Shown here piece after piece: positions 578 through 8,731 of a DNA stretch of 58,506 nt. Positions within the stretch are counted from its first letter, which is position 1, and every line of letters starts with the position of its first letter. The stretch comes from Chromatiales bacterium. Lineage in GTDB: Bacteria > Pseudomonadota > Gammaproteobacteria > SZUA-152. Both the position numbers and the translations under genes were made by a program. The stretch covers positions 1 through 58,506 of the forward strand of contig JALSGT010000100.1 of assembly GCA_026982555.1 (NCBI GenBank), read 5' to 3'. The notes beneath the pieces are model-generated. The model was not told the DNA's origin, ran no database searches, and saw nothing but the letters and a program-made list of their open reading frames with translations.

Positions 578-2965
578 ATGAATGGATGCCTTGACCAATG
601 GAAAGCTCTCACAACGCGATGTAACCCTATAGAGGGAGGCGTGGAAACGAGGATGTACGAGTCATTTTACAGGCTGCGCAAAACCCCGTTTCGGCTGACA
701 CCCGATCCATCTTTTTTCTTTGAGAGTCGTACTCACAAGCGGGGAGCCGCTTACCTGTGCTATGCCATGCAGCAGGGTGAGGGGTTTGTCGTCATCACTG
801 GCAAGCCGGGAACGGGCAAGACCGAGCTGATGCTCAATCTTATCAGCGAGTTTGATGACCCCCACGTTGTATTTGCAAAAATAGTCTCAACCAATGTAAA
901 CGCTGACGATTTTTTGGCGTTAGTGGTGGCTTCCTTTGGGCTTTCCAGCGAAGGCCTGGGTAAGGGAATTTTGCTAAAAACGCTGGAGAATTTCTTCATC
1001 GCTTGCGCCCGTCAAGACAAGCAGGTGTTTTTGCTGATTGATGAGGCGCACAACCTGTCAACCACCTCGCTCACCGAGCTTTCCATGCTGTCCAATTTTC
1101 AACTGGGTGAAAAGGCGATACTGCGCTGCTTTCTGCTGGGGCAGGAATCACTGGCGAAAAAACTCGAAAAACCAAAGCTGGCCCACCTCAAACAGCGGGT
1201 CATTGCCTCCGCACACCTGGACCCCATGAATGAGGTCGAAACAACGGAATATATCAAACATCGTCTGACCCTGGCTGGCTGGCGGGATGATCCTCGATTT
1301 CACGATGACGCCTATCCGCTGATTTATAAATTCACGGGTGGAATCCCGCGACAAATTAACTTTTTTTGCCATCGTTTGTTGCTACAAGGCTATATTGATG
1401 AACTGCACAAAATTGATGCCGGTGTTGTACGTGGGGTCATCAAAGAATTACTGGAAGAGACCACGGTCGCCCATGCGCCCTGCAACCCTGATGAACATTT
1501 TACAGTTTCATTTCCGGATACCCGTACGTCTGTTCGCCAACGTAACCAACTTCGTGTGGCAAACACACAGGAACCTCGCACATCAGCCCCCTTCCTTAAG
1601 GTCGCTGCCAATCAGGCACTCGCCATAAAACCGGAATTCACGTTCCCTGCCACGGAAAAAAAATCAACGGGCAGCGCGTTGATTACCAGCCCCGCCAATC
1701 TGGCGGATGCTGATGTCCTCCAGGAATTAGCCTGCGATGGTGCCCGTCGGCTGCTGCGTATGTTAACGCAAGACAGTCAGGCTGACCGGGAGTTACGTGC
1801 CAGTGTCGCCTTTTATATCAGGACTGAGTCGGCACGTTTGATGTCCCCGGACAGCATACGACAACTCAATGCAACCATACCCGTTGCCGTTGCCCCGGCC
1901 CATTCCCCTCCTGTCAGAATAAGCCAGCGTCTTTCGTCTGCCGGAAAATGGGCCGCTGTTGCGAGTATCGCTGTCTTTGCTGCGATCCTATCACCTCAGC
2001 TTCAACACACTGATAAACCCGTCATTCCTGCAAACAGTGCAGACAGCAAAGCAACAAACCGGTTGACCGTTGCGACGCCCATGCCCATTGGAGAAAACCG
2101 CATATCGGCTTCTGACCCTGTAACGATAATCGATTCACCGCAAAGTAATAACAGCTTAACGACTCTCGGAATATCCCTCGCCGATATTGTCACCGAAACC
2201 AACCCGCCATTAACAACAAAAGCAACAGAGCAATTGACAGTGGAACAAAATAAACTGCCGGAAACAAACAACGCATTGCGCCAAAAGAAAGGGGAGAAAA
2301 AAGCTGAAAATATGCCGATACGCCTGGCAAACAATGACAAGACAACCATACTTCCGCAGACAGCAAAACCACCTTCCCAACCATTAAAAACCCGGCCACC
2401 ACCAGAACACAGGAAGCCTGTCGGGATCAGCAAGACTGCGGATGCAAACACACCCGCTGTTGTTTTTCCCTTGTCATCACCCCCCTCTTTGGCGCTCACA
2501 AAACCTGCCGAAGACCAATCCAAACCTGTCACACCTTCTGCCACGCCCAAGCAAACTCCCGTGACTGGCAACCCGGTAGAATCAACAACAACGGAAACAG
2601 ATATTCCGGCAGCCGATTTGAAAATATTACTATCAAGACTCACCTCCGCTTATGAGGCTGGAAACCTGAGAAAACTGGTCAGCGTTTTTGCTGAAAATGC
2701 CCACAGCAACAATAAAACCAGTCTTAATGCCATTGAGGATGACTATCGCAAGCTATTTGATGTAACTGACATGCGCAAAATGATGATCAGTAATATTCAA
2801 TGGGAAAAAGTTAAAAACCGAATGCGTGGCAAAGGAAATTTTCAGTTAGTCGTGCGTGAAAAAGGCGCAGGAAGAGTGACATCCTACGATGGCAGTATCG
2901 AGCTTGATGTCGCTCAAAGCACACGGGGCATCGTCATAACACAGCTTGATTATCGTTATGATTAA
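578..2965 (+). CDS. ExeA/XrtA-type AAA ATPase with membrane anchor and C-terminal NTF2-like domain
   Basis: The N-terminal third matches the ATPases that accompany type II secretion (ExeA/GspA) and exosortase XrtA polysaccharide loci: a YESFYRLRKTPFRLTPDP opening, Walker A GKPGTGKT at residues 75-82, and Walker B FLLIDEAHNL at 151-160. A single predicted membrane segment lies near residues 457-471. A long Pro/Thr/Lys-rich linker follows, and the last ~115 residues look like an NTF2/SnoaL-like fold, probably periplasmic. ExeA normally carries a peptidoglycan-binding domain in that place, so the architecture differs. The family start is probably the ATG at 653 (residue 26); the ATG at 578 has the better ribosome site, and a GTG at 641 is a third option. 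It is followed by a barrel protein and a lipoprotein in a tight operon, suggesting work at the cell envelope. The NTF2 call is by eye. Confidence 0.8.
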   Translation: MNGCLDQWKALTTRCNPIEGGVETRMYESFYRLRKTPFRLTPDPSFFFESRTHKRGAAYLCYAMQQGEGFVVITGKPGTGKTELMLNLISEFDDPHVVFAKIVSTNVNADDFLALVVASFGLSSEGLGKGILLKTLENFFIACARQDKQVFLLIDEAHNLSTTSLTELSMLSNFQLGEKAILRCFLLGQESLAKKLEKPKLAHLKQRVIASAHLDPMNEVETTEYIKHRLTLAGWRDDPRFHDDAYPLIYKFTGGIPRQINFFCHRLLLQGYIDELHKIDAGVVRGVIKELLEETTVAHAPCNPDEHFTVSFPDTRTSVRQRNQLRVANTQEPRTSAPFLKVAANQALAIKPEFTFPATEKKSTGSALITSPANLADADVLQELACDGARRLLRMLTQDSQADRELRASVAFYIRTESARLMSPDSIRQLNATIPVAVAPAHSPPVRISQRLSSAGKWAAVASIAVFAAILSPQLQHTDKPVIPANSADSKATNRLTVATPMPIGENRISASDPVTIIDSPQSNNSLTTLGISLADIVTETNPPLTTKATEQLTVEQNKLPETNNALRQKKGEKKAENMPIRLANNDKTTILPQTAKPPSQPLKTRPPPEHRKPVGISKTADANTPAVVFPLSSPPSLALTKPAEDQSKPVTPSATPKQTPVTGNPVESTTTETDIPAADLKILLSRLTSAYEAGNLRKLVSVFAENAHSNNKTSLNAIEDDYRKLFDVTDMRKMMISNIQWEKVKNRMRGKGNFQLVVREKGAGRVTSYDGSIELDVAQSTRGIVITQLDYRYD

Positions 2966-3575
2966 AACCAGCCTGATGAAGAGCCTTTATCTCATCGCTC
3001 TGATGTTGTTACCCGTGCTTGTTACCCATCCGGTATACGCAGCACTCGGCCTGCCAGAAAATACCGCGAAACTGGGATACGCCATAGGTAGCACTTATGT
3101 TTCAGTGGATGACCCCGCCGATAACACCGCAAAGGAATGGGCTCTGCTGCCACTGACATTGATCCACACCGACTGGCTGATTGGCGATATACGCTACTGG
3201 TCAGAGCTTTTTTATTACAAGACCGTGCTGAACCCCGCGGCAAACAATGTTGGCCAAAATGTGGAACAGTATGGTTTTCGTGCCTCTCTGCAAAAAAGCC
3301 TGCGGGTAACGCGCTTATGGGCACCCTGGTTTGGCGCAGGCATCGGGATCTCCCGGGTAACGTACACCACGCGTCACACCATAGACAGCGATGGTTTTTT
3401 GCTTGCCGCTTATCCTGACCGCGAGCAAACATCCATCGCATTACTACTCAACATCGCCAGTGAATGGCCCCTGGCCCGGAACTGGGACATTGGTGTAAAA
3501 CTTGAACAGGCCATTCCCGTTGACGGAGATATCAGCGAAAGCTCGGCCCTGATAATGCTGCTGTATCGCTACTGA
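2958..3575 (+). CDS. Small predicted outer-membrane beta-barrel protein
   Basis: The ATG at 2958 overlaps the last 8 bases of the ATPase gene, implying translational coupling; an in-frame TTG at 2946 and an ATG at 2976 are alternatives. A signal peptide ends near VYA-ALG. The mature ~180 residues alternate polar and aromatic residues, contain Gly-rich turns (WFGAGIGISRV) and end in LLYRY, with the terminal aromatic residue typical of barrels recognised by BamA. The size fits an 8-strand barrel. I recognise no specific family. Position between an inner-membrane ATPase and a large lipoprotein suggests a shared envelope function, which is inference only. Confidence 0.65.
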   Translation: MIKTSLMKSLYLIALMLLPVLVTHPVYAALGLPENTAKLGYAIGSTYVSVDDPADNTAKEWALLPLTLIHTDWLIGDIRYWSELFYYKTVLNPAANNVGQNVEQYGFRASLQKSLRVTRLWAPWFGAGIGISRVTYTTRHTIDSDGFLLAAYPDREQTSIALLLNIASEWPLARNWDIGVKLEQAIPVDGDISESSALIMLLYRY

Positions 3576-3587
3576 CCGGAGCACACC

Positions 3588-6575
3588 ATGCCAACACACA
3601 AACAATTACAATCATTGCTTTTATTATTCGTTCTGCTGCTTGTGGCGGTGTCTCTCCTGACGGGTTGCTCGCCCGGCGGCTCTCTGGATTTACCCGAAGA
3701 ACGTCCGTCCGGTATTGTACAAGGCAATGTTGTTGATGGCATTTTGGTGGGTTCCCGGGTCAACATTTATGGTTTTGAAAGCGGGACCCGGGGCATACTG
3801 CTGGGGACAGCCATCACCAATGAGCAGGGTGGCTATGCCATTGAATTACAAACCTCCAATCAACCGGTCCTGATTGAAATCAGCGGCGGCACCTATCTGG
3901 AAGATGCCAGTGGCAGTGCTGTCACTCTGACTGACGGACAGGTACTGCGCGCCGTCACACACTACAAATCAGGCAAACCGCTTGATGCCATGGTAACACC
4001 GCTGACCCACCTCGCCGTCGGTCTGGCGGAATACCACATTAACAATGGCGTACCTGTGGATCGGGCAATCCGTGAAGCAAACGCAGACATTAACCGTTTC
4101 TTCGCCATCGATACCGGCACAACACCGCCTCTGGCGATTGTTGATGAAAACAACACCCTCGCCGAACTCAACGACCCGGCATTGTATGGGTTTTATCTGG
4201 CCGGGTTGTCCAACTGGACATTATGGGCAAGTGACAAAAACGATGCACCACACAGCATTTATTCATCAATTGCCCTGACACAGATTCTCTACAACGATAT
4301 CCGTTCCGATGGTGTCTTTAACGGCGTGGGTGACAACCGGGAAGGTACAGCACTAATGCCATTAGCCTTTGGGCGGGTAGCACTTGATGAAAATACTTTT
4401 CGCATTGCATTTTCCCTGCACATGCTGGCTATCGCCAACAGCGATGAAAACAAAACCAACCTGAGTATCGACAAACTGCTCACCCCAGCCCAACAGATCG
4501 CCGCACAAACCGGCGCATTGCTTGGCACATCAGACCCGGTTAGCATTGATGAACAAATACCCGAAGTCACCATAACGCGATCAGCCGATAAATATCGCAG
4601 CGGACTTTTTAGTTTTGAAATCACCATTGGCGGACTTTTAGGCGCTGAACGCATTCGTATATTTATCAATGGTGACCTGGCAACCACTCTCACAGACACA
4701 ACAAATACCCTGGCCATCATCGACACCACAGATTATACGGATGGTGAGCATGAAATCCGCGTTACCGCCACCGATGCATTGAGCAATGAAGCAAGCAACA
4801 CCTTCACCATACAATTTGACAACACCGCACCGGTAGTCAATGTCAACTCCCCGCCAGCAAGCTCGCTGGCAACGGCATTGATCACGGGCACATACAGCGA
4901 TAATGTCTCCGGTGTTCAGGCCATCACCGTTCAAGGGCAAGCGGCCACCCTGTTCACCGACGGAACCTGGAACGTCACCGTCAACCTTGAGCCCGGCGAA
5001 AACATCATTCCCATCAGCGTCATCGATCAGGTCGGCAAGCGGCTGGACACCCAAACCATTTTGCACCTGGACCTCATCGCTCCCGTTATCACCTCGACCG
5101 GCATGCACAGCCTGGCGCGTTTTTCCAATAGTGATGGCAGCTACAGTGAAGCAGTCTTGCAGAATATAAACGACGCCCTGCCATTGTATTTTGAAACAAA
5201 TGCCGTTGATCTCAACGGTGTACTCATCGACCGCCTGGAACTGAACAACAACTCAATACCCTACTTTGCTTTCAGTATTACGGATGAAATGGGACCGGAT
5301 GCCATCACGGCACCGCAAGACATGCGGGTACGCATCCAGTACGAACGCAGCGGTGAAATTATCAACCCCTGGCGAACCGTTACCGCCATCAATAATGAAT
5401 ACCTGATTCCATTGGTATCCGAAATGCTGGCGCTAAACTGGCATCAAGCACCTCCCGCAGACGAGCATGTGATTCGGGTTGAAGTAAGCGATGCCGCCGG
5501 TAACCTGAGTAACCTGAGCTTTCTCTTCCGCGCGGATTTTTATGTGCCTGCGCTCAGCATGGATACCATCAGCGATCTTGGAGCCGATATCTTCACAAAC
5601 ACACTGTTTACAGACAGGGCAAACCTCAACGGGCTGGAATTCGCCAGTATCGCTTACACCTTTACCAATACCATCGGCAAATCCTTTTACCTGTCCCTTG
5701 CAGACGATTCAATGCACACCACGGCACAAACTGTCGATCAACTGGTGCGGGAACATCAGATCAGACTCAAAACAACCCCGGAATGGCGCATCGGGCTCAT
5801 GACACCTACCACGCAATGCCCGGAAATGACCCGTTGGACAGCCGTTTCCACGGTGCTGAATTTTACGGGTTCCGCCTGGGTGCCGGAACAGGTACCTGCC
5901 GCCCGTTTCAGCACAGAGAGCGCTATTTCCAGTGATGACTTGCCTGCGTCACCAACACCGTCAACCTGGAACGATGTGCCTGATTTCGACGAGCAATTTG
6001 AAGTGACCACCCTGGAAAGTTCATCCTCGGTCCTGACTTATCGTTATGACTACATCCTCGATGAAAGTACCCTTGTGTCACCATCCGCCTATATCCTTGC
6101 CTGGGCGCTAGTGGGCATCACAGACACCCAGACCTGCCCGCAAAAACGCTACTTTCAACAGCGCGACGTTTACGCCTATGAATCCGTTGCCGGTTATCCA
6201 AAACCAGTACTCTCGTCAGTATCCGTAGCAGGTACCGCTGATTTTTCAACAAGCCGCTTTACCGTGCTGAACAACAATACCGGATTGCCTGTCGAACCCG
6301 TTGACGGCTGGTATCAGATCCCCGCAGGACATTCCATCACCATTCGCAAATGGGTCACCATGCCCGAACTTGTATTCTACAATGATGATGTCTCGGACCT
6401 GAGTGGTTTCTCCAGCTACACACCAAGCTGGAATGACAACAACATCTCCTGGGCTGTTAACCGTCATTTGACAATATCCACCCTCCACGATGCGGGAAAC
6501 AGCAATATCTCCGTCATGCCTGTACGTAACGTTAATAATGGCACCGGTATATTGACCTACCAGATCAATAAATAG
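3588..6575 (+). CDS. Large Ig-like-domain lipoprotein, 995 residues
   Basis: The start has a CGGAG ribosome site, 12 bases after the barrel gene. A lipobox LLTGC puts the acylated cysteine at residue 27. After it come a carboxypeptidase-regulatory-like beta-sandwich (about residues 43-90), a helical stretch, and at least two bacterial Ig-like repeats (about 325-415 and 415-500). The second has the TAPVV...GTYSDNVSG form seen in glucodextranase-type domains. The C-terminal 450 residues are beta-rich and unassigned, with two cysteines (in QCPEM and TCPQK) that could form a disulfide. It is probably anchored in the outer membrane and acts at the surface or in the periplasm as a binding or structural protein. 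No catalytic motif is seen. Confidence 0.75.
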   Translation: MPTHKQLQSLLLLFVLLLVAVSLLTGCSPGGSLDLPEERPSGIVQGNVVDGILVGSRVNIYGFESGTRGILLGTAITNEQGGYAIELQTSNQPVLIEISGGTYLEDASGSAVTLTDGQVLRAVTHYKSGKPLDAMVTPLTHLAVGLAEYHINNGVPVDRAIREANADINRFFAIDTGTTPPLAIVDENNTLAELNDPALYGFYLAGLSNWTLWASDKNDAPHSIYSSIALTQILYNDIRSDGVFNGVGDNREGTALMPLAFGRVALDENTFRIAFSLHMLAIANSDENKTNLSIDKLLTPAQQIAAQTGALLGTSDPVSIDEQIPEVTITRSADKYRSGLFSFEITIGGLLGAERIRIFINGDLATTLTDTTNTLAIIDTTDYTDGEHEIRVTATDALSNEASNTFTIQFDNTAPVVNVNSPPASSLATALITGTYSDNVSGVQAITVQGQAATLFTDGTWNVTVNLEPGENIIPISVIDQVGKRLDTQTILHLDLIAPVITSTGMHSLARFSNSDGSYSEAVLQNINDALPLYFETNAVDLNGVLIDRLELNNNSIPYFAFSITDEMGPDAITAPQDMRVRIQYERSGEIINPWRTVTAINNEYLIPLVSEMLALNWHQAPPADEHVIRVEVSDAAGNLSNLSFLFRADFYVPALSMDTISDLGADIFTNTLFTDRANLNGLEFASIAYTFTNTIGKSFYLSLADDSMHTTAQTVDQLVREHQIRLKTTPEWRIGLMTPTTQCPEMTRWTAVSTVLNFTGSAWVPEQVPAARFSTESAISSDDLPASPTPSTWNDVPDFDEQFEVTTLESSSSVLTYRYDYILDESTLVSPSAYILAWALVGITDTQTCPQKRYFQQRDVYAYESVAGYPKPVLSSVSVAGTADFSTSRFTVLNNNTGLPVEPVDGWYQIPAGHSITIRKWVTMPELVFYNDDVSDLSGFSSYTPSWNDNNISWAVNRHLTISTLHDAGNSNISVMPVRNVNNGTGILTYQINK

Positions 6576-7490: not shown

Positions 7491-7967
7491 TTAATTCCCC
7501 GAATAATTTTTAGCATAATGCAACAATTGCAATACGCGGCTCCTTATGATGGCACAGCGGTAACTGCCTCGTGACATATTCGCCGAACTACCAAATTCCT
7601 GGCGAGTCCAGGTATTTTCTATCAGCTCAAACTCAGCATCGCGAAATTTTATCCAGTTACATTGTGAATGAATTAATTTCTGTTGCTGCTCCGCCAACAA
7701 CCTGGATTTAACAAGATGATAAGCTTTATTCACTTCATCATCTAAAAATTTTTGATAATTGTCATATGCGATCAAATAATCTCTTGAGCCATTGCGCGGA
7801 TTATTGATTTTTTTTAAAAATGTCTGTTCGCGCAATTCAAACTCACCAATCAAATCAGGTGCATCAGGATTGTCTATCGCAAGAACCGGATTGATTAACA
7901 AACTGAAAAAAACCAGAGAAAAAACCTGCATCCATTCGGGCATATTTTTTGTGTTTATTTTCACCAT
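7491..7967 (-). CDS. LprI-like (DUF1311) secreted protein, putative lysozyme inhibitor
   Basis: A signal peptide (VFSLVFFSLLINPVLA) precedes a mature domain of the DUF1311/LprI type: two helical halves with conserved LLAEQQQKLIHSQ, NWIKFRDAE and a Cys pair (QCNW and YRCA). LprI of Mycobacterium inhibits lysozyme, and the family acts in the periplasm. The start overlaps the 3' end of the lysozyme gene by 7 bases, so the two are translated together. This pairing suggests the product protects the producer against its own lysozyme, which is inference from adjacency. Confidence 0.8.
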   Translation of the reverse strand: MVKINTKNMPEWMQVFSLVFFSLLINPVLAIDNPDAPDLIGEFELREQTFLKKINNPRNGSRDYLIAYDNYQKFLDDEVNKAYHLVKSRLLAEQQQKLIHSQCNWIKFRDAEFELIENTWTRQEFGSSANMSRGSYRCAIIRSRVLQLLHYAKNYSGN

Positions 7968-8731
7968 TGTTTATATATTCCCTTGCTGTATATATCCCAC
8001 TCGGCCTGCCTTCTGTTAATTAAACCGTTATTAATAATGCCCTGAGATTTATTCCAGGCTTTCCAGGCATCTTCCAGATTTTTATACGTGGTTTTAAGGT
8101 TAGGGTTATTCACCATTTTCAGAACTGATGAATGGGTAAAAGCCCTTTGCCCGATATTAAATGCAAGAATCACCATAGCATCAAATTCATTTTGCAGAAT
8201 ACTGGCAGTCACTTTCGTTTTAACCGTATTAACATATGGACTCAGATCCTCATTAAACAGGCTGATCGCCTGCTCCCGGGTAATACCATCTTTATATTTT
8301 GGCCACTCAGCACTGGAAATAAGGTGCCCATAACCGATAGTGGCACCTTCCACCCATGCGGTTATGTCTTTACCTGTTTGATCATCATAAGGTGTGGTGG
8401 ATAATTTCTCTATGGACTTTAACAAATCTATACCATTATCACTAAAATCAAAGGCACTGGCGGATTTTTCATCCAGCCTGACTGCACCACTCACCAGTTT
8501 TTTGAAGGTTTTCCCATCAGGGTCTATATGACCATCAGGATGCGTCATATTCAAAATATCTTTTTGAAAGTGCTCGATCCGGAGTATTGTTTTGTTACCG
8601 ATGACGCCATCCTCTTTCAGTGGTGTGATTTCTCCCGGGATTTTCTGAGCATTTAAAAGTTTTTGAACAAGAACAACATCTGCTGAATGATTCGTGCCAT
8701 TACGGCCTACGGATGCAATTATTTTATTCAC
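7961..8731 (-). CDS. Peptidoglycan-binding and GH24-type lysozyme
   Basis: The first ~80 residues form a peptidoglycan-binding-like domain (helical, with DGVIGNKTILRIEHFQ). A T4-type lysozyme (glycoside hydrolase 24) domain follows, cutting the glycan MurNAc-GlcNAc bond. The catalytic triad is visible as E108, D117 and T131 (in TIGYGH); a short insertion between D117 and T131 is like that of some phage and secreted effector lysozymes. No signal peptide or SAR anchor is seen, so export must use another route, such as holin or type VI secretion, if it acts on other cells. No phage structural or holin genes are nearby. Confidence 0.85.
   Translation of the reverse strand: MNKIIASVGRNGTNHSADVVLVQKLLNAQKIPGEITPLKEDGVIGNKTILRIEHFQKDILNMTHPDGHIDPDGKTFKKLVSGAVRLDEKSASAFDFSDNGIDLLKSIEKLSTTPYDDQTGKDITAWVEGATIGYGHLISSAEWPKYKDGITREQAISLFNEDLSPYVNTVKTKVTASILQNEFDAMVILAFNIGQRAFTHSSVLKMVNNPNLKTTYKNLEDAWKAWNKSQGIINNGLINRRQAEWDIYSKGIYKQW

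Follow-up and report, generated by a model that had tools for sequence, protein, structure and literature searches.

A three-gene operon on the plus strand of a Chromatiales contig (JALSGT010000100.1, assembly GCA_026982555.1; the 58,506 nucleotides analyzed are called the window) encodes an XrtA/ExeA-type ATPase, a predicted outer-membrane barrel, and a large lipoprotein (positions 578 to 6575; all three open reading frames [ORFs] confirmed). Across related loci, the barrel and lipoprotein genes form the constant unit, with the ATPase as one partner among several. The AAA ATPase is replaced or absent in 19 of 37 barrel loci (8 with type IV secretion system [T4SS] genes, 9 with neither T4SS genes nor a tailed upstream protein, 1 with the tail but no AAA domain, and 1 with a DnaJ domain in its place), which makes the three-gene set a variant of a two-gene unit. 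A first-pass annotation of this DNA had proposed that the three proteins could form an envelope-spanning complex; the parts, their families, and their synteny stood up, whereas an obligatory AAA ATPase did not, and the three-part complex is possible as one version of a looser module.

Gene order around the barrel

Within the window's order, which consists of a single family, 12 of 24 genomes have the barrel. A class-wide sample of 369 genomes contains it in 19, and a sample of 398 drawn across the phylum in 1, the genome that the window comes from. Scanning species genomes for the lipoprotein yielded 12 loci, all in gammaproteobacterial metagenome-assembled genomes. Gene order was surveyed over 37 non-redundant barrel loci, a gene being scored as directly downstream when it lay on the same strand at a distance of <120 bases and a tailed protein as upstream when it lay within 250 bases. 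In 30 of the 37 loci the lipoprotein is directly downstream of the barrel, and in G307 it is 157 bases away. The six remaining loci are one at a contig end (G018), two in G016 with lipoprotein relatives in or beside the same cluster, one with a lipoprotein-like gene 1.3 kb upstream of the barrel (G059:C135), and those in G026 and G201. This order is kept at 33 to 38% protein identity in other families.

An inner-membrane protein with an NTF2-like tail lies directly upstream of the barrel in 18 of the 37 loci. Twelve of these proteins carry the AAA domain in one frame with the tail, one carries the two in split frames (L070), and three are truncated at a contig end before the AAA part (G007, G103, and G150). 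The remaining two differ in their cytosolic portion: a 414-amino-acid (aa) protein in G014:C57 lacks the AAA domain and has a tail 53% identical to that of the window, and a protein in G059:C66 has DnaJ instead (Pfam, 1.1e-6; NCBIfam, 2.4e-8). At L070 (4881-9325), two consecutive AAA-domain ORFs precede the tail ORF, the second AAA domain and the tail being in different, overlapping frames; this layout is a duplication plus either a frame break or an assembly error.

Neither a tailed protein directly upstream nor a T4SS accompanies the barrel in G010, G013, G014:C66, G307, G045:C46, G192, G331, G059:C8, and G059:C135, indicating that no partner is needed everywhere. Two further barrel loci are at contig edges (G015 and G201). 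Within the barrel tree, the ATPase-linked copies mostly group, and the copies with neither partner are nested among them, a topology that reads as probable repeated loss of the ATPase. The T4SS copies fall outside the ATPase-linked ones in this tree, requiring one change (weak support, 49/82, with long branches), and need four changes in the lipoprotein tree, in which fewer than half of the positions are filled in eight of the 33 rows. Whether the pair passed from mobile element to chromosome or the reverse is not settled by these trees.

The ATPase and its periplasmic tail

The first gene (578..2965, 795 aa) matches AAA_22 (Pfam, 4.1e-21) and aligns to all 269 of the 269 positions of TIGR03015, the XrtA/PEP-CTERM ATPase model (1e-93), with a score of 313.6 bits, just under the cut-off of 324.5; the ATPase of the operon relative in G358 scores 327.3 bits, over the curated cut-off. 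The AAA/P-loop domain (653..1507) retains intact Walker A (GKPGTGKT) and Walker B (FLLIDE) motifs. The start is ambiguous: position 578 has the better ribosome-binding site, a strong one, and position 653, giving 770 aa, coincides with the beginning of the TIGR03015 family. The family assignment and the domain layout in the first-pass annotation, a membrane helix followed by a Pro/Thr linker of about 200 residues, were both borne out. The helix (residues 427 to 447 of the 770-aa form; 1931..1993) is weak in the window, where the best 19-residue hydropathy is 1.53 and the calling threshold is 1.6, and is clearer in several relatives. The linker (residues 448 to 650; 1994..2602) contains 29 prolines and 29 threonines among its 203 residues and leads to a 120-residue tail (2603..2962).

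The same annotation had described this tail as NTF2-like instead of the usual peptidoglycan-binding domain. Among 18 tails, SnoaL_2 was matched by 11 (best, 1.6e-7), SnoaL_4 by 7, DUF4440 by 7, and Cds6_C by 3, and a profile built from all 18 matched the N-terminal domain of enterococcal PBP5 (5.5e-4), ketosteroid isomerase (0.011), and designed NTF2 proteins in the PDB. The window tail searched singly matched no NTF2 model, and its designation as NTF2-like therefore holds at the level of the family, as judged from these profile matches. A peptidoglycan-binding tail was rejected, there being no PG_binding match in the window ATPase, the related ATPases, or the 18 tails.

The tail was also rejected as a signature of the barrel-lipoprotein operon, being widespread in these genomes and often in tandem. 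Usually in double form, it ends ATPases of 1089 to 1375 aa outside the operon, and it is present on other proteins, including DnaJ proteins. DnaJ and the tail are joined in one protein in L084 (794-2578), L153 (7326-9044), and L154 (10896-12998); in L153 this fusion precedes the barrel where the ATPase would otherwise be, and in L154 it has a barrel nearby on the opposite strand. A tree of the tails (56 rows, including duplicate loci labelled "other") has few supported forks and leaves unsettled whether DnaJ-type tails were recruited separately. Two XrtA-adjacent ATPases of the sample, with lengths of 332 and 420 aa, lack both a tail and a called membrane helix, indicating that the tail is an addition within the XrtA-type ATPase family.

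The ATPase tree, for which the duplicates L038 and L040 were dropped from 39 rows, used as its outgroup ATPases of 522 to 523 aa that we take to be ExeA. ATPases from polysaccharide loci form one clade in it (support 100/99), and the operon ATPases form several lineages, the order among which is not settled; three changes are needed, and several long branches meet. A paralog on contig C149 of the window's own genome is presumably MshM, given its gene layout. A role of the operon as a defense system was rejected, because a defense-system library gave just weak P-loop matches for the ATPase and none for the barrel or the lipoprotein.

The barrel and the lipoprotein

The barrel ORF (2958..3575, 205 aa from ATG) overlaps the ATPase gene by 8 bases, and the lipoprotein gene (3588..6575) starts 12 bases after it, as first annotated. 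The AlphaFold2 model of the barrel, built from 11 sequences, has a signal helix and eight long strands (mean predicted local distance difference test score [pLDDT], 86; predicted template-modeling score [pTM], 0.74), and its best PDB fold matches are a Thermus barrel, OmpA, NspA, and OmpW (Z of 16 to 17.5). It also matches porin III of the Legionella Dot/Icm system (9nh2) with a Z of 15.8 over 165 residues and a root mean square deviation of 3.6. The window barrel matches no named family in Pfam or NCBIfam, and a profile search of the PDB with the barrel gave no match; 4 of 13 members of the barrel family match OMP_b-brl (best, 9.9e-7), the window barrel not among them. The predicted model thus supports an outer-membrane barrel fold, in keeping with the first-pass annotation.

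The third protein (995 aa), annotated from the start as a large immunoglobulin (Ig)-like lipoprotein, has its lipobox cysteine at position 27 in the motif LTGC-S. Outer-membrane lipoproteins are sorted by a cysteine without aspartate at position +2. All 31 lipoproteins examined have a lipobox; the window protein has serine at +2, in line with outer-membrane sorting, and two have aspartate there (L045 and L156). Ten aligned homologs keep two cysteines beyond that of the lipobox and many aromatic or charged positions along the full length. Glucodextran_B and Big_13 alone pass in Pfam (Ig-like domains, 4563..5087), and a PDB profile search with the lipoprotein gave no match. Its predicted model consists of an N-terminal beta-sandwich, a helical domain, an array of Ig-like domains, and a conserved C-terminal half made mostly of strands; its fold matches fall mainly in residues 320 to 651 and include domains of the fibronectin type, domains linked to glycosidases, and stalks of adhesins such as SiiE and an ice adhesin. 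A 1393-aa lipoprotein in G075 (L139, 8924-13105) has a duplicated N-terminal module.

Type IV secretion loci

T4SS genes lie beside the barrel in 8 of the 37 loci and are of VirB, Dot/Icm-like, and divergent types. None of these copies of the pair has a tailed ATPase directly upstream, and no VirB or Dot genes were found in the window's three-gene operon or in the four other window genes scanned. Contig C36 of G016 has VirB4 (1.7e-210; 701 bits, over the cut-off), VirB10, VirB11-type, and VirD4-type genes, and contig C35 of the same genome has DotH/IcmK (3.7e-52), DotI/IcmL (4.4e-35), a TrbI match, and a T2SSE ATPase. This one genome has a VirB-type cluster (L105/L052) and a Dot/Icm-like cluster (L106/L107); both are accompanied by a barrel-family member and by relatives of the lipoprotein, some of which have repeated N-terminal modules.

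The divergent type is represented by plasmid CP013100.1 of Candidatus Tenderia electrophaga, which is mobilizable and of type MOBP (PLSDB). It has a gene for a TraC/VirB4-like ATPase (7.3e-21) and, 87 bases before the barrel, a TrbI-like gene (5.2e-7), both matches scoring below the curated level; the lipoprotein follows the barrel. The same organism has an ATPase-linked copy on its large contig. G045:C53, G045:C62, and G227:C17 keep the gene order of the plasmid, and G228 and G026 have some of its genes; the T4SS label of G026 rests on similarity to two small plasmid genes, its five scanned neighbors having no Pfam match. Distant relatives of the lipoprotein N terminus are encoded on a Myxococcus plasmid, with a TraC-family gene nearby, and on one from Burkholderia contaminans, in the vicinity of pilin and secretion ATPase genes; further ones occur on Vibrio and Photobacterium replicons.

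Exosortase and polysaccharide export genes

Of 40 genomes, 16 have an XrtA match over the cut-off. Within the window's family (24 genomes), XrtA is present in 10 of the 12 with the barrel versus 4 of the 12 without it, a difference confounded by kinship. Dependence of the operon on XrtA was rejected, because G002 (99% complete) and G018 have the barrel and the tailed ATPase and no XrtA match. In the window's genome, XrtA is on contig C62 and the operon is on C100.

XrtA-type ATPases with two tails occur at separate loci. One in G002:C21 (L056, 8147-18192) precedes genes for YjbH, a Wza-like SLBB/Poly_export protein, and Wzz (Pfam, full), and a second, in G014:C57, is near an SLBB/Poly_export gene. 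Judged by gene content, these double-tailed loci are ATPase-linked polysaccharide export loci. Similar loci are L057, L059, and L046 (the Pfam scan being full for L056 and partial for L046).

Proposed function and alternatives

Our tentative explanation, held with somewhat less than even confidence, is that the pair is an outer-surface adhesin unit and that the tailed ATPase is its assembly or anchoring partner. The large Ig-array lipoprotein would act as an adhesin or contact protein at the surface, and the dedicated eight-stranded barrel would hold it or aid its display. The long, flexible linker may give the NTF2-like domain the reach to span the periplasm and to contact the barrel or the lipoprotein as a docking site, and the ATPase, by analogy with ExeA and its secretin, might time or power assembly of the pair; in conjugation-type clusters, the T4SS machine would replace the tailed ATPase. 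In favor of this explanation, the cytosolic domain varies (AAA, none, or DnaJ) while the tail stays. Also in its favor are the conserved gene order, the T4SS genes at eight loci, the adhesin stalks among the fold matches of the lipoprotein, and the likeness of the barrel to porin III. The tail is taken as the putative docking part because it is common to the non-T4SS partners, apart from the loci that have none, and the conjugation-type contexts together with the swapping of partners make an adhesin or contact role the simplest account of the lipoprotein.

Several observations weigh against an adhesin unit served by this ATPase. Nine of the 37 loci have neither partner, the operon ATPases do not resolve as one clade apart from the polysaccharide-locus ATPases, and relatives of the lipoprotein N terminus are also found away from any known barrel. 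In addition, the lipoprotein model is of moderate quality (pLDDT, 74; pTM, 0.38), and its adhesin fold matches are also common to many other Ig-array proteins. A broader version, which we regard as doubtful, makes the pair a portable outer-membrane contact cap that would fit onto T4SSs of three kinds as well as onto ATPases and DnaJ proteins bearing the NTF2 tail, the barrel being a dedicated counterpart of the porins of the Dot/Icm channel and the lipoprotein a contact protein of transfer systems.

The operon could instead serve an exopolysaccharide or capsule, the ATPase being a copy of an export ATPase and the barrel and lipoprotein binding or anchoring the polymer at the surface. The paralogs with two tails that precede YjbH, Wza-like SLBB, and Wzz genes in the same genomes, the naming of TIGR03015 for the exosortase system, and the higher incidence of XrtA in genomes with the barrel all fit this alternative, but the kinship behind that incidence, the two genomes with the operon genes and no XrtA, the placement of the window genome's XrtA on another contig, and the T4SS copies of the pair, which have no such ATPase directly upstream, make it rather unlikely. 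Less probable still is a tether between the inner and outer membranes or an envelope-stress module, in which the NTF2 domain and linker join the membranes and the lipoprotein stays inside; it would accommodate the finding that inner-membrane proteins of various sorts, DnaJ fusions among them, bear an NTF2 domain behind a long linker, but would leave unexplained a 995-residue Ig-array protein and its place in conjugation-type operons. Surface exclusion, in which the copies on chromosomes would imitate contact proteins of mobile elements and thereby bar conjugation into the cell, seems improbable: Ca. Tenderia electrophaga does have both an ATPase-linked copy and a plasmid T4SS copy, but the defense library contained no notable match. 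Chance adjacency of the three genes, which the lack of the ATPase in some relatives might suggest, is refuted by synteny over the 37 barrel loci, maintained at the low protein identities given above, and its probability is negligible. Because the genes do stay together in relatives (lipoprotein downstream in 30 loci, tailed protein upstream in 18) and the tail is not an ordinary peptidoglycan-binding domain, the idea of the first-pass annotation survived both of the checks set for it.

Relation to known systems

ExeA/GspA of type II secretion resembles the window ATPase in having an AAA domain with Walker A and B, a membrane helix, and a periplasmic domain; it differs in that the window protein has an NTF2-like tail and no peptidoglycan-binding domain. 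ExeA with ExeB is reported to be needed for the assembly of the secretin, an outer-membrane protein (PMC4098917). The window operon, which holds the barrel and the lipoprotein besides the ATPase, contains no ExeB or secretin, and the target of its ATPase would be a single eight-stranded barrel and a lipoprotein rather than a secretin. The ATPase associated with XrtA (TIGR03015) belongs to the same family, and the window protein, just under its cut-off, adds the helix, linker, and tail and is not beside XrtA.

Ig-domain proteins of plasmid transfer regions are reported to promote conjugation (PMC8730810), and the Big proteins RSP and RSP2 of conjugative plasmids are, like the window lipoprotein, large and Ig-like; homologs of the window pair also occur in transfer-type operons. 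As described in that paper, the RSP proteins are exported to the medium and bind flagella and pili, whereas those of the window type are lipoproteins with a dedicated barrel. Porin rings are described as surrounding the Legionella Dot/Icm T4SS channel, with a role called undetermined there (PMC12857230). Porin III shares the eight-stranded fold of the window barrel, and one member of the barrel family lies inside a Dot/Icm-like cluster, but the two are 10% identical, the likeness being one of fold, and the available text of that paper mentions no Ig lipoprotein for the porin rings. The small barrels OmpA, OmpX, and OmpW likewise share the eight-stranded fold and a signal peptide with the window barrel, which has no PDB sequence match by profile.

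Each part therefore belongs to a known superfamily, and the combination is without a description that we could find: literature searches, in whose coverage subscription papers were mostly not included, returned none of an NTF2-like domain with ExeA, of TIGR03015, or of the three-part combination, the other papers returned serving for comparison only. If the proposed function is correct, one surface protein pair is served by either an ExeA-like ATPase or a T4SS machine. The operon would then offer a genetic handle on the function of XrtA/ExeA-type ATPases with periplasmic tails and on why outer-membrane barrels gather round T4SS channels, as those described in Legionella do (PMC12857230).

Other features of the window

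In a promoter and terminator scan, promoter-like sites around the operon were not above those in shuffled sequence, and no clear terminator was evident 3' of the lipoprotein gene. Downstream of the operon, on the opposite strand, is a phage-type lysozyme gene (7961-8731) with a weak peptidoglycan-binding match, a relative of which also adjoins the lipoprotein end in G006:C9 (L048).
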